NCBI RefSeq assembly: GCF_004792415.1 | Contig: NZ_CP038855.1 | Span: 1 to 64,000, forward strand | Direction: 5' to 3' | From: Pantoea vagans | Lineage (GTDB): Bacteria > Pseudomonadota > Gammaproteobacteria > Enterobacterales > Enterobacteriaceae | Length of the DNA: 64,000 bases | Shown here: positions 17,829-64,000 of the stretch, in pieces | Position numbering within the stretch: the first letter of the stretch is position 1 | Layout: each line of letters begins with the position of its first letter | The notes under the pieces: model-generated | The model's database searches: none | Seen by the model: the letters and a program-made list of their open reading frames with translations, nothing else | What the model was told of the DNA's origin: nothing | Made by a program: the position numbers and the translations under genes

Positions 17829-20024
17829 CTGAAACGTCCAGTTTATCATGATGCCGAGGCGGCTCGCCTTGATGCACTTAAGCAGTATCATCTGATGGAT
17901 TCACCGCCGACCGATGCGCTGGATCGCCTTACCACGCTTGCCGCGCGACTGTTCCGCGTACCGGTGGCGTTTGTATCGCTTATCGATGAAAAGCGACAGT
18001 TTTTCGCTTCCCGCTACGGTCTGAACATTTCCGGTACGTCGCGCAACGTCGCCTTCTGCCACCATACGTTGGCGCAGGGCGATATCCTCTGCGTGCCCGA
18101 TACGCTGAAAGATCCCCGCTTCCGCGACAGTCCGCTGGTTCATGGCTACCCCTTTATCCGCTTTTATGCCGGGATCCCGCTCTCGACGCCGGATGGTCAT
18201 CACATTGGCACCGTCTGCCTGACCGACAGTCATCCGCGCGAGCCGCTGACTGCAGAAGATCGGAAGCATCTGACCGATATTGCTGCACTGGTGATGGATC
18301 GCATGGAGATGCATCGTCTGGAGTTACTGCGCTACACCAGTCAGCAGCGTCTTCAGGCAATCTCATCCACCTCACCCGACGCCATTGTCTGTACCGACCT
18401 GCAACGCGGCATCACCTTCTGGAATCCGGCAGCCACTGCTCTCTTCGGCTACAGCGCAGAGGAGATGAGAGGTCAGTATGTCAGCGAGCTGATCCCGGCG
18501 CGCTGCCAGACTGACTACCGTAACGAGCTGGCCCGGATTACCTCAGACGAAGCGGCTATCTCTCACCCTCGTTCGCTGCAGATATGGGGTGTGACGCGCG
18601 ATGGCCGTGAATTCCCGGCAGAAGTCTCATTTTCGGGCTGGCGTGAAGAGGGCGAGCGGCTGGTGGGCATGATCATCCGCGACGTCACGGCACGCTATGA
18701 AAGTGAGGCGCGGCTCTGTGAGCTGGCTTCTCTGGATATGCTGACGCGACTCGCCAGCCGTAGCGCGTTCATGGATCAGGTCGGGCAGCTGACCAAAGCG
18801 GGCGTTCCCTACACCTTACTGATGACCGATCTCGATGGTTTTAAAGAGGTGAACGATACGCTGGGACATGCAGCTGGCGATGCGCTGCTGTGTCACGTGG
18901 CCGAGCAGATTCGTGCGGTGTGTGCCGGTGCCGTAACGGCTGCGCGGCTGGGCGGCGATGAATTTGTGATCCTGCTGGCGGGCGGCAGCGCTGAGGCAGC
19001 GATTACGGCGGAAAAACTGATTGTGGCCGTACAGACGCCGTTCCGCTATCACGACTCGCCGGTTGTGGTCGGTGCCAGTACCGGCATCGCTTCCTACCCG
19101 GAACACGGTCGCGACCCCTCTGCGGTGATGTCCGCTGCTGATCTGGCACTCTACCGTGCTAAAGCTTCAGGCAAAGGCTGCAGTATCCTGTTTATGCCTG
19201 CGTTTCGTGAAGCGGAGCAGCAGCGTCGCCGTTTTGAACGCGAACTGGAAACGGCGGTGCGGCAGCAGCAGTTCACGCTTTACTATCAGCCCCGCTTCGA
19301 CGTGGAAAGCGGAAAACTGACTGGCTGCGAGACGCTGGTACGCTGGCAGCACCCGACACGCGGATTGCTGTTGCCTGCCGACTTCATCGGCATGCTGGTT
19401 AAAAGCCCGCTTTCCGTAACGCTGGGCGAATGGATCATCCGCAGTGCTCTGGCACAGGTCCGGCAGTGGCAGGTGCGATCGCCTGAGCTTCGTGTCAGCA
19501 TCAATCTGTTTCCGCGTCAGCTGACAGGGAACAGCCTGGAAACCGTTATACGCGAGAGTGCTGGCGGCGATGCGGGTTTTGTTGAGCTGGAAGTGGATGA
19601 GCCTCTGCTGGCTGTGCTGGTGCAGGATATGCCGGTTCAGGTTGAAGCGGTGCGCCGGACCGGTGCCTCATTCATCATCGATCATTACGGACGCACGCTG
19701 GGGGCGATTAATCTGCTGCGCCACAGCTTTGTAGCAGGTTTTAAAATCGACAAGTCGCTGACGCACGAGCTGAACTCCAGCATGCGGGTGCGAATGATGT
19801 ACCGATCTATCACGGCACTCGGCAAAAGTCTGGGTATTCGGGTAGCTGCTGAAGGGGTTGAAGACAAAGAGCAGATCGCTTTTGTCACGTCAGCCGGATG
19901 TCACATTATGCAGGGCAATGGCCTGTGCCGGCCACTGACACCAGCGGACTTTGAAGCAATGCTGTGCGGCGAGGAGCATTCTGCGCCCGCTGTTGCCAGC
20001 GGTTACGATGTCACATCACCCTGA
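17829..20024 (+). CDS. GAF-PAS-GGDEF-EAL(degenerate) protein, apparent CTG start
   Basis: Cytoplasmic c-di-GMP protein of 731 aa from the proposed start. GAF (about 20-155) and PAS (about 165-290) sensors precede a GGDEF domain with an intact GGDEF (375-379) and no I-site. The EAL domain is eroded: ETL replaces EAL at 501 and the DDFGTG loop reads DHYGRT, losing a metal-binding Asp, so phosphodiesterase activity is doubtful. The first ATG (17895) would cut into the GAF domain and has no SD. The in-frame CTG at 17829 follows AGAGGGGA by 6 nt and adds residues (KRPVYHDAEAARLDALKQY) typical of this family's N-terminus. Confidence 0.87.
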   Translation: MKRPVYHDAEAARLDALKQYHLMDSPPTDALDRLTTLAARLFRVPVAFVSLIDEKRQFFASRYGLNISGTSRNVAFCHHTLAQGDILCVPDTLKDPRFRDSPLVHGYPFIRFYAGIPLSTPDGHHIGTVCLTDSHPREPLTAEDRKHLTDIAALVMDRMEMHRLELLRYTSQQRLQAISSTSPDAIVCTDLQRGITFWNPAATALFGYSAEEMRGQYVSELIPARCQTDYRNELARITSDEAAISHPRSLQIWGVTRDGREFPAEVSFSGWREEGERLVGMIIRDVTARYESEARLCELASLDMLTRLASRSAFMDQVGQLTKAGVPYTLLMTDLDGFKEVNDTLGHAAGDALLCHVAEQIRAVCAGAVTAARLGGDEFVILLAGGSAEAAITAEKLIVAVQTPFRYHDSPVVVGASTGIASYPEHGRDPSAVMSAADLALYRAKASGKGCSILFMPAFREAEQQRRRFERELETAVRQQQFTLYYQPRFDVESGKLTGCETLVRWQHPTRGLLLPADFIGMLVKSPLSVTLGEWIIRSALAQVRQWQVRSPELRVSINLFPRQLTGNSLETVIRESAGGDAGFVELEVDEPLLAVLVQDMPVQVEAVRRTGASFIIDHYGRTLGAINLLRHSFVAGFKIDKSLTHELNSSMRVRMMYRSITALGKSLGIRVAAEGVEDKEQIAFVTSAGCHIMQGNGLCRPLTPADFEAMLCGEEHSAPAVASGYDVTSP

Positions 20025-54164: not shown

Positions 54165-54189
54165 AAGCTGGATTTAATCACGAGAACGG

Positions 54190-54226
54190 TGCGGCAGGCT
54201 GCGAATCCTCATGCCTGTCGCATTTT
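54190..54226 (+). terminator. Terminator of the dehydrogenase-isomerase-binding-protein operon
   Basis: TGCGGCAGGC pairs with GCCTGTCGCA (10 bp with one G-T pair, 13-nt loop), then TTTTAAT. Its position also argues against a coding start for the next gene before 54227. Confidence 0.75.
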
Positions 54227-54338
54227 AATGCCAGTTAAACGTCACCTCTGTGCGTTGGCTGATTCAGGACTCATTCGTGCTTCTTTAGATCAGCTGAATT
54301 ATACTGTCAGAAATGAGCGCAAATTCAGTGATTTCTTA

Positions 54339-55172
54339 ATGATTTACATTATCGATGACCAGGTTACCTACAATTCGGATGATTGTACGCTGAGCCATAT
54401 TCCTACTCAGGACACGCTGAGTCTGAGTATTTCATCGGGCCGGCTGTTTGAGCAGTTACTGAATTCCCAGGGAGAAATACTGGCGCGCGAAACCCTGCTG
54501 ACCGAAGTCTGGGATAAGTATGGGCTGCGCGGATCAAACAGCAATCTGAACCAGTATCTGAGTATTCTGCGCAGAGCGCTTGCGGCTTATGGTTGTGAAA
54601 ACCTGATTATCACCATTCCAAAAATTGGTATCCGGCTTAATACCGAAATCAAAATTGAACGCGAAGCTTCCCCGGTTTTTGTTACGGCGGCAGATCAGCC
54701 AGATGAGATACCAGAAGAGAATGCTGCTTCCGTACAGAACAAACAGGCCGTTCAGCCTGAACCTGCCGCTGCAGATAAGGTTGCTGAAAAGCGCTCATTC
54801 ACCATCAGGCAGCTCATATCGGCGATTGTCATACTGATGTTGCTGGGAACGGCTTTCGGGTACTTCACTGCACGTGAGTCTGCTGAAAAGAGTTCCACGA
54901 TGAGTATCATCAAACCAGAAGGCGGCTGCGAGGCGGTGATTATACCGGGGCTGGATGTTTTTGAGCAAAAGTCACTGGATAAGCAAATTCTTGAAATTCT
55001 GAAAGAGAATAATCAATCCTGCACGCCCGGACGACGCATCTATTTTGATAAACACACGTCTGTGACCACCACAAATTATGGCAGAACGATTCTCTCCGCC
55101 TGCAACCTTAACAGCAGTGGCCATACCGTTTCCTGCGACAACTTCTATTATTTTGACTGGAGAATGAATTGA
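54339..55172 (+). CDS. CadC/MarT-like membrane-anchored regulator
   Basis: A 277-aa ToxR-type transcription factor: N-terminal winged helix (about 1-105; LFEQLLNSQGEILARETLLTEVWDKYGLRGSNSNLNQYLSILRRAL), a Pro/Glu/Ala-rich linker, one transmembrane helix (about 165-185) and a periplasmic domain of about 90 residues with several cysteines. The frame is open upstream to 54189, but a terminator lies there and family similarity starts at MIYIIDDQV. The following FidL-like gene overlaps its stop, the same pairing as marT-fidL in Salmonella. Confidence 0.85.
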   Translation: MIYIIDDQVTYNSDDCTLSHIPTQDTLSLSISSGRLFEQLLNSQGEILARETLLTEVWDKYGLRGSNSNLNQYLSILRRALAAYGCENLIITIPKIGIRLNTEIKIEREASPVFVTAADQPDEIPEENAASVQNKQAVQPEPAAADKVAEKRSFTIRQLISAIVILMLLGTAFGYFTARESAEKSSTMSIIKPEGGCEAVIIPGLDVFEQKSLDKQILEILKENNQSCTPGRRIYFDKHTSVTTTNYGRTILSACNLNSSGHTVSCDNFYYFDWRMN

Positions 55173-55666
55173 AACGGCGCGCCACCCTTACTCTGACGAT
55201 AACGCTGGCTGCCCTGTTGCTGGTTATTTTTGCCGGCATTAATTATTTCAGGCATCAGGCTGACGAGCTCCCATTTCGCTGCTCAGCATTTAGTCGCTAC
55301 GATCTCAGCCGCCACGATGCTAAAAGAACAGAGTTTACTGTTTCGCAGGATTTGCGTTTTATCGACCTGAACTCAGGATATTTGTTGCTAAACGGGCAGG
55401 TGACGTCGGGTGAAGAGGTTACAACGCTGAATCGACGTATTGCGTTGAGCGAAGGGCATAAAATTGATAGTGATACCTATCGCTATAAAATCAGAACGAT
55501 TATTACTTCAACAAACGATACAACGCCGGATGCGCTGTTTAATCTGCTGCTGGCAGAAATCACGCTCGACCCTACGTATCTGCAGCTGGATATCACGCAG
55601 GTTGATAACAAGACGTATCTGATCGGCGGACCGCTCTCCTATCTGTTTACCTGTCAGAGATACTGA
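55169..55666 (+). CDS. FidL-like membrane protein
   Basis: A 165-aa protein with an N-terminal transmembrane helix (about 7-27) and a periplasmic domain with two conserved-looking cysteines. The start is a TTG overlapping the upstream TGA (TTGA), with GGAGA about 3-7 nt upstream. Similar small proteins (FidL) follow MarT-type regulators and may modulate their periplasmic sensor. Function is otherwise unknown. Converges on the ABC exporter gene. Confidence 0.75.
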   Translation: MKRRATLTLTITLAALLLVIFAGINYFRHQADELPFRCSAFSRYDLSRHDAKRTEFTVSQDLRFIDLNSGYLLLNGQVTSGEEVTTLNRRIALSEGHKIDSDTYRYKIRTIITSTNDTTPDALFNLLLAEITLDPTYLQLDITQVDNKTYLIGGPLSYLFTCQRY

Positions 55667-55681
55667 TCCACCAGATCCAGC

Positions 55682-55710
55682 AGGCATGAAACCGGAAAGG
55701 GATCATGCCT
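55682..55710. terminator. Hairpin between convergent fidL-like and exporter genes
   Basis: AGGCATGA and TCATGCCT, 8-bp stem with a 13-nt loop, in the 55-nt gap. T-rich tails are short on both sides. Confidence 0.45.
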
Positions 55711-55721
55711 TTGCTGGTTAA

Positions 55722-57905
55722 CTACTCCAGTGTCGTCTCTGCGTCATCGCGCCGTTCTGCCTGACTAAATAGCTCCTCAGCCGTGACCTCGCTGAGTACG
55801 CCGTTATTTAACCGGACAATTTTATCTGCACTGCGGATCGTTTCCGGGCGGTGCGCGATGATGATTCTGGTGATCTTCATCTGACGGATTGCGTTATTAA
55901 TTTGCGCTTCGTTATAGATATCCAGATGACTGGTCGCTTCGTCCAGCACCAGAATCTGAGGTTCGCGATACAGCGCGCGTGCCAGCAGAATTCGTTGCAG
56001 CTGACCACCCGACAGAAAAGATCCCATATCGCCTACCAGACTTTGATAGTTCATCGGCATTTTCATAATGTCGGCGTGAATTTGCGCCAGGCGTGCGACG
56101 CGGGTGATTTTGGCGTGGTCGGGTTCGTTATCAAAAAAGCTGATGTTCTCGCTGATGGAGCCTGAAAACAGAATGTCATCCTGCATCACACAGCCGATGC
56201 GGTTACGATGATGTTCGAGTCCGGTCTGGGTGATATCCATGCCACCTACGGTGATAGTGCCGCTTTCCGGGTGCAGCAGACCCAGAATGATTTTAGCCAG
56301 CGTCGTTTTTCCCTGACCGGAAGGGCCAACAATTGCCAGGCTCTCACCGGCTTTAATTTCCAGACTGGCATCCGCGACAACCCAGGGCTCTGTCGGGGCA
56401 TATCGAAAATAAATGTTTGTCAGTCTGATATCCTGAGGTCTATCCATATCTTCGTGCATTTCATTGCTTATCAGACCCGCATGCATTTCTGAGCTGGCTT
56501 CCGTCTCTGACAGGACAATGTCAGCCAGACGCTCACCGTGCATACGCAGCATTCTGAAGTCGATAATAGCGTTGATCAGGCCTGCACCCCGGCTCAGAAA
56601 CTGATCGGAGAAACTGATAAACGCGGTGAGCATCCCCGCAGAGAAATTGCCATCCAGCACCTGGATCGCGGCCAGCCAGACTAATATTACCCGGCCTACC
56701 GAGGTCAGCAGTCCCTGAGCTGAACCAAACAGAATATTCAGCTTCTGTATGACGATGCCTTTGTTGGTGGAGTCCACCAGAAAGTTCATATAAGCCGCGA
56801 GGCGGGGAACCTGTTTGTTATTGGTTTTAACCGCCTGAATACCCCGTAACGTTTCCAGCAGTGAAGACTGCGTTCGGGCTGAACTGATGATTTGCTCTTC
56901 GTTAGCACGTCGCACCGGATCGTAAGCCACAAAGCGCAGCAACGCATAAGCGATGAAAAGCCCGATAACCAGCCAGGCAAGCTGTGCGTTATAGATGAAG
57001 AGCATCACAACCGTCACAATCGACATGACCCCATCTAATACGGTACTGATGAAGCGGGTGGTCAGCGTACTCTGAATGGTGTTGAGCGAGCCGTAACGGG
57101 AGAGAACGTCACCCACATGACGTGATTCAAACCACTCCAGTGGCAGTTTTAACATGTGATGACAGACGTTAACCGTCCATTGCACACTTAGCTGACTTGA
57201 AAACCAGCTCATCACCCACGATCGTAAAGCGGTCACAATAGTCTGGAATATCGCAATCATGATAAAACCGACCCCAAGCAACGTCAGTAATGAGTAGTCG
57301 GCGGAGACCAGCACCATATCCATCACCCACTGCATAAAGAAGGGGGTCAATACGCCAAAAAATTCCAGGGCGACCGACAGGATGAGAACCTGGGCAAACG
57401 CAGATTTCACCCCGGTTACGCTTCCCACCAGCTTCATCATCGAGATGCTTTCTTTTTCCTCTTTGACTTCAAAACTGGATGAGGGAACCAGCTCCAGTGC
57501 TACGCCGGTGAAGGCAGTTGAAGCCTCTTTGAATGTCAGCTCGCGCACACCGCGTGCAGGATCGTGAATCGTGATTTTATTGCCACGTACTCTCTTCAGT
57601 ACGACGAAATGATTGAGTTCCCAGTGAAGAATGCAGGGCATACGTAATTTAGACAGCTCTTCCATGTCGACACGCAGCGCACGTGAACTCATATTGAGCT
57701 GTTGTGCCATCGCGATAAGAGCAGTCAGCGTGGCACCTTTAAGCGATGTGGCAAACTGACGGCGCAGCGTGATCATGTCGATCTCATGGCCATGGTAGTT
57801 GGCAATCATACCCAGGCACGCCAGACCGCATTCCGCAGCCTGAGACTGGCGAATCATCGGCAGGCGGTTAAACCATTTAAAATTAAGTTTCTCTAATAAC
57901 AGCAC
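55722..57905 (-). CDS. C39-peptidase ABC exporter (CvaB/RaxB type)
   Basis: A 727-aa bacteriocin-type transporter that cleaves a double-glycine leader and exports the peptide. The N-terminal C39 domain has a full triad: Cys26 in QSQAAECGLACLG, His in HWELNHFVVL (near 100) and Asp in IHDPARG (near 118). Then a six-helix membrane domain and an ATPase with GPSGQGKTT, LSGGQLQR and LVLDEATSHLD. The start is taken as a GTG at 57905 with AAGG upstream, 17 nt after the HlyD-like stop; an ATG at 57971 would overlap that gene. Last gene of the exporter operon. Confidence 0.92.
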   Translation of the reverse strand: MLLLEKLNFKWFNRLPMIRQSQAAECGLACLGMIANYHGHEIDMITLRRQFATSLKGATLTALIAMAQQLNMSSRALRVDMEELSKLRMPCILHWELNHFVVLKRVRGNKITIHDPARGVRELTFKEASTAFTGVALELVPSSSFEVKEEKESISMMKLVGSVTGVKSAFAQVLILSVALEFFGVLTPFFMQWVMDMVLVSADYSLLTLLGVGFIMIAIFQTIVTALRSWVMSWFSSQLSVQWTVNVCHHMLKLPLEWFESRHVGDVLSRYGSLNTIQSTLTTRFISTVLDGVMSIVTVVMLFIYNAQLAWLVIGLFIAYALLRFVAYDPVRRANEEQIISSARTQSSLLETLRGIQAVKTNNKQVPRLAAYMNFLVDSTNKGIVIQKLNILFGSAQGLLTSVGRVILVWLAAIQVLDGNFSAGMLTAFISFSDQFLSRGAGLINAIIDFRMLRMHGERLADIVLSETEASSEMHAGLISNEMHEDMDRPQDIRLTNIYFRYAPTEPWVVADASLEIKAGESLAIVGPSGQGKTTLAKIILGLLHPESGTITVGGMDITQTGLEHHRNRIGCVMQDDILFSGSISENISFFDNEPDHAKITRVARLAQIHADIMKMPMNYQSLVGDMGSFLSGGQLQRILLARALYREPQILVLDEATSHLDIYNEAQINNAIRQMKITRIIIAHRPETIRSADKIVRLNNGVLSEVTAEELFSQAERRDDAETTLE

Positions 57906-57922
57906 AGAACAGACCTTATGAA

Positions 57923-59182
57923 TCAAATGGAAATTTTGTGTCCCAGCGCAAAAATCGGCTCCAGTACCCATTCATAGAGACGACGCTGGTCAACAATAAA
58001 GTCGGCCTCCAGCGCCATACCCGGTTTCAGTTTTTCATTCCGCGCATAGGCAGTAATCGTCTGGTTATCCAGCGAAACCAGTACGCGATACTGCTGTTCC
58101 TGAATATTACTGATGCCGGTCAGCGTGGTGACCTCCTGAGGAGAAAGGGCTGTGCGGGACACCTCGATCACCCTGCCATACTGCTGACCAAATTTTTGAT
58201 AGGGGAACGCTTTGTAGCGCAGGACAACTCGCTGGCCCGGCTGAATAAAGCCTATGGATTTCGTGTTCACCATGATGCGGGCAACCAGATTCGAATTACT
58301 GGGAAGAATGGATACCGCTGACTGACCGGCAGTAAGCATCTGACCATTTTTAACCATGATCATGCCGACATAACCGCTTTTAGGCGCGTGCAGCTCGAAA
58401 GATCGACGCGCTTCATTTTCAGCCATCGACTGACGGTTTTCTGCCAGCTGGCGTTCGATATCGTTGCGCTTCTTCTCTTCATCCAGCGGCATTTCATGAA
58501 GTTGCTGCTCCGCCTGCACAATCTTTTGCGATGTGTCCAGCAGCTGACGCTGATACTCCTGATAGCGCGCCTGGCTGTCGAGCAGAGCAGACTCCTGCTC
58601 TTCCAGTTGACGGTTTGAGGCGTATCCCGCCTGTTGCATGGCATTCAGTTTATCCAGCTGCAGTTTTGCTAACGCCACCTGTTTGCGGCGATGTGTCAGC
58701 TGTAACTTCAGTTGCTCCTGCTGCAGTTTCAGGCTGGCAATGGTGTCGGTTAACCCTTTGAGTTCGACGTCGTGTAACTTAGCCAGAGTTGCAAGATCCT
58801 GCTGAAGGCGCTCACGCTGACCCGCCAGATTTTCGGCGATGACCTGACGTGTCTGTCCCATTTGAGTTGAAACTTCCGATGACAGGACCATGAGCACATC
58901 ATCTTTTTTGACCAGCTGTCCCTCTTTAACCGGGATATCAATGACGGTTGCGCTCACAGCAGGAGGCACGATTAACATGCCATTTTCAGGCACAAGTTCA
59001 CCGGTTGAGGACTCATATTTGGTGTAACTGCCAAATATGAAAAAGAGGGCTGTGGCGGCAGTAATAAAAAACACTACAGAAATAACCAGCCAGCGATAGG
59101 GAGGGCAGTAGAGCGCCACAATGCCCAGGTTGCCCCGGTTGGCTGCATCAAGTGCCTCCTGGCGGAAAAGCGACTGTTCCAT
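57923..59182 (-). CDS. HlyD-family membrane-fusion protein
   Basis: A 419-aa type I secretion adaptor (CvaA/RaxA-like). One transmembrane helix near 33-55, a lipoyl half-motif (PAVSATVIDIPVKEGQLVKKDDVLMVL), a long coiled coil (about 120-260) and a C-terminal beta domain. Bridges the C39 ABC transporter and the TolC-like channel encoded on either side of it. Gaps of 25 and 17 nt indicate one operon. Confidence 0.93.
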   Translation of the reverse strand: MEQSLFRQEALDAANRGNLGIVALYCPPYRWLVISVVFFITAATALFFIFGSYTKYESSTGELVPENGMLIVPPAVSATVIDIPVKEGQLVKKDDVLMVLSSEVSTQMGQTRQVIAENLAGQRERLQQDLATLAKLHDVELKGLTDTIASLKLQQEQLKLQLTHRRKQVALAKLQLDKLNAMQQAGYASNRQLEEQESALLDSQARYQEYQRQLLDTSQKIVQAEQQLHEMPLDEEKKRNDIERQLAENRQSMAENEARRSFELHAPKSGYVGMIMVKNGQMLTAGQSAVSILPSNSNLVARIMVNTKSIGFIQPGQRVVLRYKAFPYQKFGQQYGRVIEVSRTALSPQEVTTLTGISNIQEQQYRVLVSLDNQTITAYARNEKLKPGMALEADFIVDQRRLYEWVLEPIFALGHKISI

Positions 59183-59207
59183 TTATGATTTCTTCATGAT
59201 TGAGGCG

Positions 59208-60530
59208 TTAATGACACTGAAAAAAATTCAGCATATCGGGTGAGAGCGATCCGGTACTTTGCGCCAGATTGATCAGGGCATTGAGATAATTCAACCGGAC
59301 TTCTGCCTGGTCTTTCAGCGCGCTGTAATACTTCTGCTGGGCGTCCAGTTCATCGTTAACCGTGCGAAAACCCATGTCCCGGCCATACTGCACTGACACC
59401 ACTTTCTCATGTGCTGAGTCGACGGCATTCTTCTGTGCCTGGATCAAGGCTTTGCCACTGGTCAGGCTGAGCCAGGCAGATCGCGTATCGGTTGCTGCTT
59501 TACGCTGTGCTTCGGTAATTGAAAATTTTGCGGCCCGGTGGCGATAGGCGGCCTCAACAGATTGCGACATCTGACTGCCGCCAGCAAAAAGGGGAATGGA
59601 AACGTTAACGCCATACTGGAGGTTGTTACTTTTCGATGTCGTTCCGAAAATGGCGTCATACAGAACGTTGTCATCGTCATCGTTACGACTCCAGTTTTTT
59701 CCATACCTGGCATAGAGCGATACGACGGGCATATGCGCTCCCTGCGCTGCCAGCACATCGGCATCCGCCTGATCGTTCTGCAACATGGCGATTTTTACCC
59801 GGGTGTTTCGCTGCTGGCTTGCATTAATCGCATCGACAAGTGAGGTATAAGGTGTTTTTTTAAGACACTGAAAGTTTACGGGCTCAACCGTATCCGGGCT
59901 GATGCCTGATAAGCGGCGAAAATTTTCTTCAGCCAGTAATAACTGATTTCCCGATTCAATCTCTTTCGCCTGAGCAAGCGTATAGTTGGCTTTAGCTTCA
60001 TCGAGTTCAGTACGCGTATTCTGACCATTAGCCAGTCCGCTTTGAAGTTTCTGCTGTTGCTGTTGGAAGTTATGGCTGGCTGATTTTGATGCCTGTAAAA
60101 CTTCCTGCTGATAAAGCACCGTAAAGTAGGCTTCACTGACAGCAATTAAAAGTTTCTCTTCAGCCAGACGGGCTTCTGCCTCTGCTGTGTTGGCAATCGC
60201 GACGCCTTTGCGCCAGCCCGCATATTTACTGATATCAAATAACGGCTGCCGGACACTCAGATCGTAGCTGTGGTTGGTCACCCCGCTTTGATACTTTTTA
60301 TCGGGCTGCTCCTGTCGATCCCAGTTACCCTCCAGAGTCAGAGACGGCAACAGTTCTGCCATCCCTTGCCAGTATTTCTGTTTATCCGCTTCACTGGTCA
60401 TCCTGCCGGCTTGCAAAGCGGTGTCATAATTCAGCGCGGACAGCGCCGCCTGTTGCAGGTTGGTGGCGAATGTGGACAAAGGCCAGCAAATCAGTATCAG
60501 CAGTGACGTTACAGCGGTTTTCATTTTCAT
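59208..60530 (-). CDS. TolC-family outer-membrane channel
   Basis: A 440-aa outer-membrane efflux protein with signal peptide (MKMKTAVTSLLILICWPLSTFA) and two OEP repeats of paired helices and barrel strands. It supplies a dedicated exit duct for the exporter, unlike systems that borrow the housekeeping TolC. The start at 60530 is chosen for the signal peptide; a longer frame to 60587 overlaps the regulator gene. SD is weak. Confidence 0.9.
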   Translation of the reverse strand: MKMKTAVTSLLILICWPLSTFATNLQQAALSALNYDTALQAGRMTSEADKQKYWQGMAELLPSLTLEGNWDRQEQPDKKYQSGVTNHSYDLSVRQPLFDISKYAGWRKGVAIANTAEAEARLAEEKLLIAVSEAYFTVLYQQEVLQASKSASHNFQQQQQKLQSGLANGQNTRTELDEAKANYTLAQAKEIESGNQLLLAEENFRRLSGISPDTVEPVNFQCLKKTPYTSLVDAINASQQRNTRVKIAMLQNDQADADVLAAQGAHMPVVSLYARYGKNWSRNDDDDNVLYDAIFGTTSKSNNLQYGVNVSIPLFAGGSQMSQSVEAAYRHRAAKFSITEAQRKAATDTRSAWLSLTSGKALIQAQKNAVDSAHEKVVSVQYGRDMGFRTVNDELDAQQKYYSALKDQAEVRLNYLNALINLAQSTGSLSPDMLNFFQCH

Positions 60531-60561
60531 GTGATTCTTCGTGGGCAAGCCAGACGGGAGA

Positions 60562-61218
60562 CTAGATAAGTTCGTGCGCGAAAACATATTTGATCAGTTC
60601 TGTGTTGGTGCTGAGATGGAGTTTGCGCATGGCATTGTATTTTTGTGTTGCAACCGTGCTTATGCTTCTGCTCCGGACTTTTGCTATCTCCATCAGGCTA
60701 TGGCCCATTGCAAACAAACGGATAACTTCCATTTCTGATGGGGATAAAAGATTTTGCGTGGGTTGATTTGAAGCTAAATGTGCCAGGTCTTTCATCGTTT
60801 CAGAGTAATAAACACTGGAGTGAAAGGAAGATATCCAGTGAACGGCTTTAACAAGATCCTGAATGTCATCACGCTTACTCACGACCGCACTGACTGGAAC
60901 CTGCAAGACTCTTTTCAGGAAGTTCAGACTTCGCGAAGCAGTAAAAACCAGAATCTTCAGGTCAGAAGACTGCTTATGAATCTCCTCAAGTTTACTGACG
61001 CCATTTAAGTCATTGCGGTCAAAACTAAAGAAGGAATCTGTGATCAATATATCGGGAGTATCTTCTCTCAGACGAAGTAAAAGGTTCTTTGTGTCAGGTG
61101 GGTAGGTATAAATCTCCAGATGATTAAACTCGGCTGAAAGGATTGACTGCAAAGTATAAATAATGAACGGACTTTCATCAGATAAACCTACACGAAGTCG
61201 CTTCCTGCTCTGTGACAT
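60562..61218 (-). CDS. LuxR-family response regulator (RcsB-like)
   Basis: A 218-aa regulator with a receiver-like domain (putative phospho-Asp61 in ILITDSFF, though the usual acidic pair reads SDES) and a LuxR HTH near 150-212 (LSPSEMEVIRLFAMGHSLMEIAKVRSRSISTVATQKYNAMRKL). First gene of the operon, 31 nt before the TolC-like gene, so it probably controls its own exporter unit. Its kinase, if any, is not in the window. Confidence 0.88.
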   Translation of the reverse strand: MSQSRKRLRVGLSDESPFIIYTLQSILSAEFNHLEIYTYPPDTKNLLLRLREDTPDILITDSFFSFDRNDLNGVSKLEEIHKQSSDLKILVFTASRSLNFLKRVLQVPVSAVVSKRDDIQDLVKAVHWISSFHSSVYYSETMKDLAHLASNQPTQNLLSPSEMEVIRLFAMGHSLMEIAKVRSRSISTVATQKYNAMRKLHLSTNTELIKYVFAHELI

Positions 61219-62826
61219 AGAGTTGATAATTCCTTATATCAGTAGAATGTAGTGAACAACATCCTAAAAAAATCCTTTAATCTTTTAGATTTACTGGTGC
61301 GGCAATAAGTAATTAACCTGCTGCTAAAGTGTTTTCCTAATCCTGTTTAAGTGAGGCTATGTAAATCCCGTAAATGATAATCAAAATTAAAGCGAAAAGT
61401 GGCGCTAACCGTGCGGTGTGAAAATGATCTAACATAGTAACTTCACATTTAATTGGCTTTGACTGTTAAGACTTTATCTTAGTAAAGTTAATTTCCCGAT
61501 GCTTAATGTAACCCGGGAGTATTAAGCTAAAAAGTGACCGCGCCCTTTCCCGGAAGGTTGAATCAGTGAAAAAATAATTTTGTTATCGATATTGAAGCCT
61601 TTACTTTTTTATTTTTGGCTCATGAGTTGCATCAGGTTTCTGGATGAGCCTGTAGCAATGTTAGTCGCAGAGTACGTAAAGTAATTATACTTAATCCAGA
61701 CAGAATCACACAGCTCTGTGGTTATTCAGAGATGCGATGCTTTCGAAGCAAAAAAAACTTACAGTAAAAATTCAATCCAGACCAGAGTTTATAGGCTTTA
61801 AGTTTTGATTTTTTTTGAAAACACATTCTCAAATGACTGTTTCATGTTGGGGTTTATTATTAATTTTGCACAATATAAGTAACAAAAAATGCGTTATCAC
61901 TGGGCGCAGCTCGAACGGGCATGCGCTTTTGTCTGAGATAACAGACGTTATTGCAACTGGTGTAAACCTACCTCTTATGAGTTAATTGTGGATGCCTTCT
62001 GGTAAACCAGACCACAAACCCTGCCGTACCCTCTCTGCGACTCACAAAAAACGAAGTTTTTTTAAAAAACATGCTCAATGTAAAAGTCCCCTAAAAAGAA
62101 GAGAAATATTTAACTGTTGCGGTGGTGAATCAATGATTACTGAATTCTGTTGTTAACGTGAGCATGCCCAGACTCTTTTTCAGATGAATAGTCAGACCAG
62201 GAAAATAAAATGGCCAATCAATATATTGAAGTTTTGTGCTGTAAATTACTTTTTTAGCAAAATAAAAATCTAAATAAATCTCCATTTGTAATTTAAATAT
62301 CCTAATTGGCAATGGCGTGTTTTAATTGTTTTCAAGAGGAGATGCTTGTCAAAATAGCTTATGGCCGAATTGATAACATGGCCTCCAAAATGAATTTCAT
62401 TTTTGACAATATTAATTTTTTTTGCATTTTTTGTTATTGAGTGATAATTTTCAAAACTTAAAACACAACATGCAAAACCAAATAAGAATGAGGGATTTTT
62501 TTTCATAGAAAAAGTTATAACACTGTCAATAACGCTTAAGTTTCTGAACTAATCTACTGACTAAATAGTCTTTTACTGGCGTGATATCTGTTTGTTATAA
62601 AACTTATTGGTGTTTTATTCTCCCTTTTTACCTGTTTATGGTGTTGAGTTTTATATGAAGCGTTTTATTATACCCAATTACATTGGAGGGTTCCTTACGC
62701 TCTGAACAGGAGGCGAGCTAAAAGAACGGCAGTACACCAGGGGAAAATAAAGACCATAACAAACTGATTTTACAAATTTTGCTACTAATTACTAACCGTT
62801 GTGTTAGTTACATTGAGTTAATCAAT
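61219..62826. other. AT-rich 1.6-kb region without confident genes
   Basis: Strikingly AT-rich compared with the rest of the window. Several short frames exist: 61833-61985 (50 codons, no SD), 61992-62156 (54 codons, ends in a GG-containing segment) and a minus-strand frame at 62270-62506 (78 codons, signal-like start, no SD). None could be supported as a gene. Probably holds the promoter of the exporter operon and laterally acquired, H-NS-type DNA. Confidence 0.6.
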
Positions 62827-63417
62827 ATGTATAGAGTGTCTAAAAATCATGAAAGGATTATCGACGCATTAGCAGGTTATGCACAAATTGCTAATCCAGA
62901 TGAAATTTCCAGGGGTAAGCGTCGCTATCATTTAACAAAAGATAATGTACGTCGCGTAATGTTTATCCTCGAAGGCGACTTTTTACTTAAACTTAAAGGT
63001 GAGAATAAGGTTCTCAACATCTTGTGTGCGCCATACGTTGTAGGCATAGCACCGGCACTGGATGAACCGCCAGTTTACCTGGAAAGAATCGATTATGGCA
63101 AAGTCAGTTTTATCGAGTATGACGTGTTATGGCGACTGATCTTTGAAAAAGATTTGTTTAATGATGCTATGTCGATTTTGTCAGGCAAGTATTCTGATTT
63201 AATGAACTATATCCAGTTGCCAAAAAGTAACTCTCACGATGAAGTCATTTCTTTGATTAATCGATGGGAAAAACTGCCATCACATCTGAAGAAAAGATTT
63301 TCTGCACTTTATCTTATTGAAAACAGCTCGCACCTTTCAAAAAGTTCCATCTGTAGAGTACTTAAAGAACTAAAAGAAAAGGGTGAGCTTACGCTGGTTA
63401 ACGGCAAATTTACATAG
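62827..63417 (+). CDS. IprA/YaiV-like winged-helix regulator
   Basis: A 196-aa protein with a cyclic-nucleotide-binding-like N-terminal barrel lacking obvious ligand residues (RRVMFILEGDFLLKLKGENKVLNILCAPYVVGI) and a C-terminal winged helix (SKSSICRVLKELKEKGELTLVNGKF). This layout is that of enterobacterial IprA-type HTH proteins. The start at 62827 is the likely one; an in-frame upstream ATG at 62779 lacks similarity. AT-rich codon use like its surroundings suggests acquisition. Confidence 0.8.
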   Translation: MYRVSKNHERIIDALAGYAQIANPDEISRGKRRYHLTKDNVRRVMFILEGDFLLKLKGENKVLNILCAPYVVGIAPALDEPPVYLERIDYGKVSFIEYDVLWRLIFEKDLFNDAMSILSGKYSDLMNYIQLPKSNSHDEVISLINRWEKLPSHLKKRFSALYLIENSSHLSKSSICRVLKELKEKGELTLVNGKFT

Positions 63418-63454
63418 TCTGTAATTTGAACTTTTGAGATGCCCAAGGGAAAAA

Positions 63455-64000
63455 ATGGATTTAAACGTATTTTGTACTGATGGAAACTATTACTTCAAAC
63501 TGGGCATCTCAAAGATGATTGAGGGCGCTCTGTTATCTGATGTTAATGTGAGATTTTTAACAGGATCGATAAACGATAGCTTACCAAAGGCCGATCTTAT
63601 CCTGATCAATTTTTCTCAATGGCGATTATATATGTGTCATCCGGCATATCGTAACCGGAAGCCGGGTAGCGCGATAATCGTCTTTGTTGACAACAGAGAT
63701 GAAATTATCACCAGTCAGTTGCCCGTTTGCTATCAATCCCTGATTGTGTTTTCACGTAAAGACTCTGTGCGCGTCATATCTGAAAGGATTACAGAGGTTT
63801 TACTCACTACGGAGGGAAGGGAAAGAGGATACTTACCCTCAGATTGTCTGAACTGCAACTTCGCACACATTACTGTTGTACAGCTTCAGGTGCTTAGCTT
63901 TTTAAAGAAAGGCTATGGCGTAGGTCAGGCTGCAAAAAGGCTCAATTTATCCAGTAAAACTATTTATGCACATAAATATAACATAATGAAAAAGTTTGTA
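63455..64000 (+). CDS. LuxR-family regulator, cut by the window end
   Basis: The first 182 codons of a protein starting MDLNVFCTDGNYYFKLGISK. The N-terminal part resembles a receiver-like fold without a clear phospho-Asp; the C-terminal part is a LuxR HTH (TVVQLQVLSFLKKGYGVGQAAKRLNLSSKTIYAHKYNIMKKF). AAGGGA lies 4 nt before the ATG. It follows the IprA-like gene by 37 nt, so the two may be co-transcribed. The 3' end is outside the window. Confidence 0.82.
   Translation, partial: MDLNVFCTDGNYYFKLGISKMIEGALLSDVNVRFLTGSINDSLPKADLILINFSQWRLYMCHPAYRNRKPGSAIIVFVDNRDEIITSQLPVCYQSLIVFSRKDSVRVISERITEVLLTTEGRERGYLPSDCLNCNFAHITVVQLQVLSFLKKGYGVGQAAKRLNLSSKTIYAHKYNIMKKFV

Follow-up and report, generated by a model that had tools for sequence, protein, structure and literature searches.

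Loci resembling Cdz of Caulobacter crescentus combine a type I exporter with one to three glycine-zipper proteins of 60-151 amino acids (aa), with a leader ending in G[G/A/S], and adhesion or fimbrial genes lie in many of these regions (PMC5380434, available portion). The exporter presented here belongs close to this group. It is encoded on the minus strand of the first 64 kb (NZ_CP038855.1, 64,000 nucleotides, called the window) of contig C3 (180,464 bases) of a Pantoea vagans genome (GCF_004792415.1, here G000; three contigs, 4.79 Mb). The full locus found in related genomes shows the sequence features given for Cdz-like loci, including nearby adhesion genes (same portion of PMC5380434). The copy in the window, in contrast, has neither a local glycine-zipper peptide nor a fimbria at the corresponding site, and its own putative peptides are non-zipper and encoded in trans. 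With class II microcins of the CvaAB/MccV type, the system shares the C39 ATP-binding cassette (ABC) transporter, the HlyD adaptor and the double-glycine precursor, and the relatives' peptides give weak, sub-threshold matches to the MccV family. It differs from them in that the operon has its own TolC, that the precursors are unlinked from the exporter, with none beside it, and that no clear immunity gene adjoins. The preliminary description of this DNA had proposed a possibly new peptide secretion system; a double-glycine peptide exporter it is, but it represents a C39 type I secretion variant near the Cdz-like and class II microcin systems.

In its parts this exporter is unremarkable; what sets it apart is that it is retained without local cargo and with plausible cargo genes in trans. 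Its genes and catalytic codons are the following.

55722-57905, minus strand: C39 peptidase-containing ABC transporter, 727 aa from a GTG at 57905 (open reading frame (ORF) calling, Pfam/NCBIfam)
57828-57830, minus strand: codon of catalytic Cys48 (749-aa numbering; alignment to 4ry2)
57609-57611, minus strand: codon of catalytic His121 (749-aa numbering; alignment to 4ry2)
57561-57563, minus strand: codon of catalytic Asp137 (749-aa numbering; alignment to 4ry2)
57923-59182, minus strand: HlyD-family periplasmic adaptor (ORF calling, Pfam/NCBIfam)
59208-60587, minus strand: TolC-family outer-membrane channel (TIGR01844, above cut-off)
60562-61218, minus strand: response regulator with a GerE/LuxR-type helix-turn-helix (HTH), first gene of the operon (Pfam/NCBIfam)

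These four minus-strand genes are predicted to form an intact C39-type, i.e., peptide-cleaving, type I secretion system. The open frame of the ABC gene (55722-57971, minus strand) matches PF03412, PF00664 and PF00005; it reaches 57971 (749 aa) and then overlaps hlyD, and the 727-aa start, annotated in two relatives, corresponds here to the GTG at 57905. For TolC, an in-frame ATG at 60530 is a possible alternative start. Cys48, His121 and Asp137 align with the triad of 4ry2, a solved peptidase-containing bacteriocin transporter. The tight operon with an intact Cys-His-Asp triad seen in the preliminary description is thus confirmed by ORFs, domain models and alignment, and the inactive C39 domain that it had considered was not found: by alignment, the catalytic residues are intact. 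The transmembrane and nucleotide-binding domains, the adaptor and the outer-membrane channel are all present, and the nucleotide-binding motifs were located in the ABC protein. The best NCBIfam score of the latter is to the NHLP bacteriocin exporter and the second to the HlyB subfamily, both under cut-off. The 20 best plasmid records with this transporter are plasmids of 160-210 kb, and megablast against E. coli genomes gave no homologues.

Quite probably, this is a stripped but still working exporter that serves dispersed double-glycine cargo and derives from a fimbria-linked Cdz/microcin-like system. Its ancestor would have been a Pantoea plasmid system in which the exporter came with at least one double-glycine peptide, an Eag-like chaperone and a fimbria of the chaperone-usher type. 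The lineage of G000 and its sister genome G050 would have dropped the local peptides, the fimbria and the chaperone, and selection would have retained the exporter for serving peptides encoded elsewhere, at least those of C1:48237-48479 and C3:131370-131651. Their leaders would dock on the C39 domain and be cut after Gly-Ala (C39 exporters: Gly-Ala/Gly-Gly), and a mature peptide of 65-78 residues would leave through ABC-HlyD-TolC in one step. We infer recognition, cleavage and export, as well as a function of the peptides, either between bacteria or in surface and adhesion. An exporter 'without cargo' would so become a case of cargo in trans, missed by searches limited to the exporter neighbourhood.

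The complete arrangement is seen in P. agglomerans CFBP8756 (L018) and P. vagans C9-1 (L019): LuxR, HTH, an AT-rich gap, two small genes and four fimbrial genes, followed by the response regulator, TolC, HlyD, the C39 ABC transporter and a DcrB-related gene. In CFBP8756, the first small gene encodes 105 aa (MRELTSVEMRNVSGAG...) with ten GxxxG motifs in the mature part, and the second 73 aa (MRELNNREIEGVSGG...), both with a double-glycine-type leader; the two families are conserved, with 8 and 7 sequences aligned. Leader-bearing genes adjoin the exporter as pairs in L004, L005, L006, L008, L009, L018 and L019 and singly in L010 and L011; none was found in L003, the locus of G050, nor in L007, which extends just 1.2 kb upstream of its ABC match. 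Fimbrial genes are present in L018, L019, L010, L051, L075, L077, L156 and L157, the loci annotated for them. Enterobacter sp. BIGb0383 (L011; transporter 72% identical) has one leader peptide beside TolC-HlyD-ABC-DcrB and no fimbria. The full layout seems confined to Pantoea, with a version lacking the fimbria in this Enterobacter strain. Small hidden Markov models found no TolC, DcrB-like gene or usher in 26 stretches around distant exporters (20 of 45 outside the genus, at 45-50% identity, and 6 of 16 within), some of which stop at contig edges. The comparison across related genomes thus shows the same operon together with local peptides, fimbria and a DcrB-like gene. The exporter called 'complete' in the preliminary description is so as a four-gene set, and lacks these three further elements. 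Its expectation that a cargo should exist gains from the leader peptides beside the relatives' exporters and from the two candidates elsewhere in the own genome. Among the loci compared, the response regulator heading the exporter genes of C9-1 (L019 8744-9405) is annotated as two separate short genes, and in L130 (G063:C6) the ABC and HlyD frames of a related exporter are broken into several pieces.

Queried directly with the 105-aa and 73-aa peptides of the relatives, the own genome gave nothing convincing; profile searches yielded candidates. Two short ORFs with double-glycine leaders were obtained, as the preliminary description had hoped of a genome-wide search. The first, C1:48237-48479, lies on the chromosome between xylB and a major facilitator superfamily transporter gene and encodes 80 aa, with a predicted cut after MKELNTNEIEMVSGA and a mature part beginning GLTEFLAG. 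It was first detected with the profile of the relatives' 73-aa family (expectation value E 0.0036); its E of 1.6e-11 with the mixed profile comes from a profile that already included this sequence. The second, C3:131370-131651, about 70 kb from the exporter, encodes 93 aa, with a good ribosome site, a predicted cut after MRQLNAAELNAVSGA and a mature part beginning DIGYSDLL. It is the sole leader ORF found by regular expression on the whole of C3. This expression was composed after the peptides had been seen and recovers 47/47 rows of alignments A1-A4, which overlap in their rows; on random sequence of the length of C3, its loose form gave a hit in 2/12 runs and its strict form in 0/12, against one observed hit for each. 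Five other genomes have a conserved counterpart of the C3 peptide, at 72-81% identity. With GxxxG counts of 1 and 0, the two candidates are not glycine-zipper peptides. A large protein collection holds 7 homologues of the C1 type and 16 of the C3 type (the own one included), all unnamed or 'hypothetical protein' and without Pfam domains; two peptide families that databases list in this way are hereby highlighted. By their leaders, both genes encode candidate double-glycine substrates for the exporter within its own genome.

Besides the exporter of the window, PF03412 matches just one protein of the genome, C1:3737038, which we take to be of the LapB type and which lacks the catalytic Cys. If a C39 protein cuts the two leaders, it is for this reason most likely the one of the window. 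The LapB-type exporter resembles the system of the window in its C39-like domain, HlyD and TolC-like channel and differs from it by the missing Cys and by a giant adhesin-like frame next to it; in C1:3730000-3744000 (L017), this exporter set adjoins a frame that spans at least 1692 aa and contains repeated domains.

The distribution of the peptides was followed in a genus sample of 61 genomes. The transporter matches at E<=1e-100 in 31 of them, 11 at >=78% identity, 4 at 58-60% and 16 at 39-47%. The mixed peptide profile (A4, E<=0.001) finds matches in 27/61 genomes: 15/15 of those with an exporter at >=58%, 8/16 with a distant exporter and 4/30 with none. In G059 and G043, the leader peptides lie farther away on the same contig as the exporter. 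The family of the C1 peptide, with MKEL and MREI branches, occurs at E<=1e-20 in 8/15 exporter genomes (>=58% identity) vs. 1/46 others (Fisher 1.7e-5, ignoring kinship), a cut set after the list had been seen; at E<=0.01, 16 genomes match, the remainder being partial or leader-only. The MRQL family, that of the C3 peptide, occurs in 6/15 vs. 0/46 (Fisher 9.0e-5, likewise ignoring kinship). Where computable, the ratio of nonsynonymous to synonymous substitutions (dN/dS) of the peptide genes is 0.06-0.40.

Some of these genes occur in other settings. In other genomes, the MREI branch (MREINQTEI...) sits between what we take, by recognition of their sequences, to be a universal-stress-protein gene and an rsmJ-like gene. 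The region L072 6811-10520 (G050:C8) contains a tandem of three MKEL-type leader peptide genes, two of them identical, with duplicated xylB-like pieces between them. Glycine-zipper leader peptides were also seen outside the exporter locus, in L080-L084, L086 and L088, as pairs or larger groups in L080, L081, L083, L086 and L088; those of L084 and L080 belong to the exporter-less genomes G004 and G011.

A shared upstream element links part of these genes to the exporter locus. The motif TTACTAT occurs at most 260 bp upstream of the start in 21/37 leader-peptide genes vs. 7/296 other ORFs; dinucleotide shuffles give a mean of 1.4 and a maximum of 6. As this motif was chosen post hoc, a 24-bp model was tested with each of the 13 families left out in turn, on 36/37 genes (L019, without an exact TTACTAT, was excluded). 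The site upstream of the own C1 peptide, AATTATGGCCTTTTTACTATTGTT, remained strong: 0/200 shuffles and 0/296 background upstream regions were as good. The exporter-locus peptides of seven relatives have AATTATGGATATTTTACTATTTTA-like sites, likewise beyond the 200 shuffles and 296 background regions. One further family is weakly positive (6/200 shuffles in two of its three members, 24/200 in the third). The element as a signature of all peptide genes was therefore rejected; in the leave-one-out test, it is strong for two families and weak for a third. In sequence terms, it connects the exporter locus with the MKEL-type C1 peptide, and not with every cargo. No good copy of the 24-bp element was found in the window.

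Several observations weigh against cargo in trans and are best considered together with the first rival explanation, in which the two peptides are orphans unrelated to the exporter of the window. The C3 peptide is matched weakly by the mixed profile (just E 0.0085) and is absent from the sister G050. The other ten families, including its own and the MREI branch (15-56 of 200), are negative or borderline for the upstream element, and the operon of the window has a single upstream TTACTAT, which the sister does not share. The association of peptides with exporter genomes is confounded by kinship. An MREI-type peptide is present in G011 without this exporter, and G004, G011, G016 and G045 have mixed-profile matches without an exporter at the thresholds given above, those of G016 and G045 not having been read. 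The closest pair of C1-type peptides has the highest dN/dS, 0.40. Furthermore, by ORF length and hydropathy only, no clear immunity-like partner is clustered with either own peptide: the intergenic space of the C1 peptide has no same-strand hydrophobic ORF of at least 25 aa, with a hydrophobic 74-aa frame antisense across the start, and the surroundings of the C3 peptide, screened at >=60 aa only, gave no clear candidate. However, the leaders resemble those of the exporter-locus peptides, the distribution tracks the exporter, the C1 peptide has the shared element and the genome gave no further C39 protein with a Cys. Orphan peptides are hence unlikely, although they are the strongest of the alternatives. 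Under the preferred reading, cargo served in trans, the non-zipper nature of the peptides and the lack of a clear immunity partner suggest something other than an ordinary microcin unit and leave signalling or surface roles as candidates.

A second rival sees a relic in the exporter, its purpose lost with the local cargo and its intact look merely due to recent loss. In its favor, the exporter loci of G000 and G050 both lack the adjacent peptides, the fimbria seen in relatives and the DcrB-like gene. The DcrB-like gene lies immediately behind the ABC gene in 12/15 genomes (including G006, G014 and G059), and the contig of G043 terminates within the ABC gene; with the CFBP8756 protein as query (E<=0.001), G000 and G050 have no such gene behind the ABC gene and no match elsewhere. 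G000 and G050 group as sisters (support 100/99) within the 11 genomes whose transporter is at >=78%; the loss is therefore derived and is most simply explained by a single event before their split. Since then, dS has reached 0.35-0.54 in the exporter genes, without any internal stop, and dN/dS (Nei-Gojobori counts) is 0.097 for the response regulator, 0.120 for TolC, 0.108 for HlyD and 0.071 for the ABC gene. This points to purifying selection, as seen in genes that are still used, and a relic is accordingly slightly less likely still than orphan peptides. Just beyond the right end of the window, a chaperone-usher fimbrial operon with two chaperones follows the LuxR gene (C3:65012-70939; L015 11013-16940). 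It was rejected as the relatives' missing fimbria: its usher is just 32% identical to that of L018 and 35% to those of G043 and G014.

Next to the exporter genes, the window contains the following features.

55667-55721, no strand: 55-bp gap where relatives have the DcrB/Eag-like gene, absent here
61219-62826, no strand: AT-rich gap without leader-bearing ORF, GC 0.339; relatives hold double-glycine peptides and the fimbrial operon here
62827-63417, plus strand: HTH_46-type regulator (weak Pfam match under cut-off), conserved beside the system in relatives
63434-64000, plus strand: LuxR-type regulator, ATG at 63455, extending beyond the window to C3:64084

The absence of a clear precursor nearby, already remarked in the preliminary description, holds: none of the 17 ORFs of at least 25 aa in 61219-62830 has a double-glycine leader, and a search across the window found no leader-bearing precursor. 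A looser expression gave two unrelated matches there, a minus-strand frame (17901-18065) and the LuxR gene itself. By tblastn, the gap shows no trace of the peptides, fimbria or DcrB gene of the relatives (nothing below E 0.017), and no RNA families were found in 60.5-64.0 kb up to E 1. The AT-rich DNA had been taken as a mark of acquisition. GC is 0.34 in G000, 0.37 in G050 and 0.32 in L018 and L019, and 15 plasmid records, 15/15 from Pantoea, have matches to the right end of this gap, covering 12-19% of the query. A foreign insert was therefore rejected, the gap being equally AT-rich in the two relatives measured. Because G000 and G050 both retain it, AT-rich as in L018 and L019, the composition is ancestral; what took place is a loss and not a gain.

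This gap could also hide an unseen precursor, or the peptide could be atypical. Short ORFs of up to 78 aa do occur in it, but all are without a leader. Unlike the flanking genes, the 61.5-62.3 kb region barely aligns to the sister G050 (120 bp at 73%), and the 78-aa ORF (62270-62506) has no counterpart there among the sister ORFs of at least 70 aa. Such a precursor is thus improbable. Least probable of all is an exporter for a large non-double-glycine protein: the second-best NCBIfam score, to the HlyB subfamily, is under cut-off like the best one, the C39 residues are intact, the relatives' loci read gene by gene have small leader-bearing peptides and no evident large substrate apart from fimbrial genes, and the giant adhesin of the genome has its own exporter.

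The DcrB-like gene of the relatives deserves separate comparison. Its protein matches PF08786, and by sequence profile its nearest solved structures are the putative cytoplasmic protein 6xrr (4.4e-16) and two SciW entries (4.8e-16 and 7.8e-16), followed more weakly by the hypothetical protein 1tu1 (E 0.0051) and EagT6 (E 0.0057). SciW is an Eag chaperone of type VI secretion systems (T6SS). To our knowledge, Eag-type chaperones have so far been known from type VI secretion. The relatives' gene is nearest to solved Eag-type proteins and differs from T6SS Eag/DUF1795 genes by being paired with a C39 exporter and not with a PAAR effector; in the window, it is absent. Such genes lie directly behind C39 exporters at L075 6853-7296, L077 10816-11253, L011 12158-12592 and L018 14243-14674, and no T6SS genes were noticed near them in the stretches read, T6SS models not having been used. 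The available text of PMC7773334 describes DUF1795/DcrB as the family of type VI secretion Eag chaperones, and according to that of PMC12472927, T6SS islands of P. agglomerans contain an Eag gene. An Eag-like gene finds no mention in the available portion of the Cdz account (PMC5380434).

Zipper peptides, Eag-like gene and the relatives' fimbria are jointly missing from the two bare-exporter genomes, as expected if the chaperone serves the zipper peptides; this joint absence, one shared loss event, is no more than a hint in that direction. A broader network can be tentatively proposed, and with clearly less confidence than the stripped exporter itself. The plasmid C39 exporter would be a hub serving changing leader peptides on chromosome and plasmid, partly with a common upstream element. 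Glycine-zipper cargo would need the Eag-type chaperone and be presented with the fimbria, and lineages losing zipper cargo would lose both, the exporter remaining for non-zipper cargo that has no immunity partner. If true, the combination of Eag-like gene, C39 exporter and glycine-zipper peptides in relatives would relate type I to type VI secretion, both facing one problem, keeping membrane-active segments soluble before export.

In the open-licence literature, no publication on this locus was found by title or start of the abstract, and DcrB finds no mention among the literature matches listed. The word Pantoea is absent from the available text of PMC9746304, as are 'type I secretion' and 'HlyD' in a word search of the available text of the LPP-1 plasmid account (PMC3505739). 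Many class II microcins of Pantoea have been predicted with cinful (available text of PMC13174018); overlap with the peptides described here is possible.

Finally, two minor features border the system. In CFBP8756, a 76-aa protein with one hydrophobic stretch is encoded beside the LuxR gene (L018 378-608), a candidate immunity or accessory gene. On the other side of the exporter, the window has a pair of genes for a winged HTH (Trans_reg_C) and a FidL-like protein (54189-55666); this pair is absent behind the exporter of G050 (L003) and adjoins the system in relatives too.

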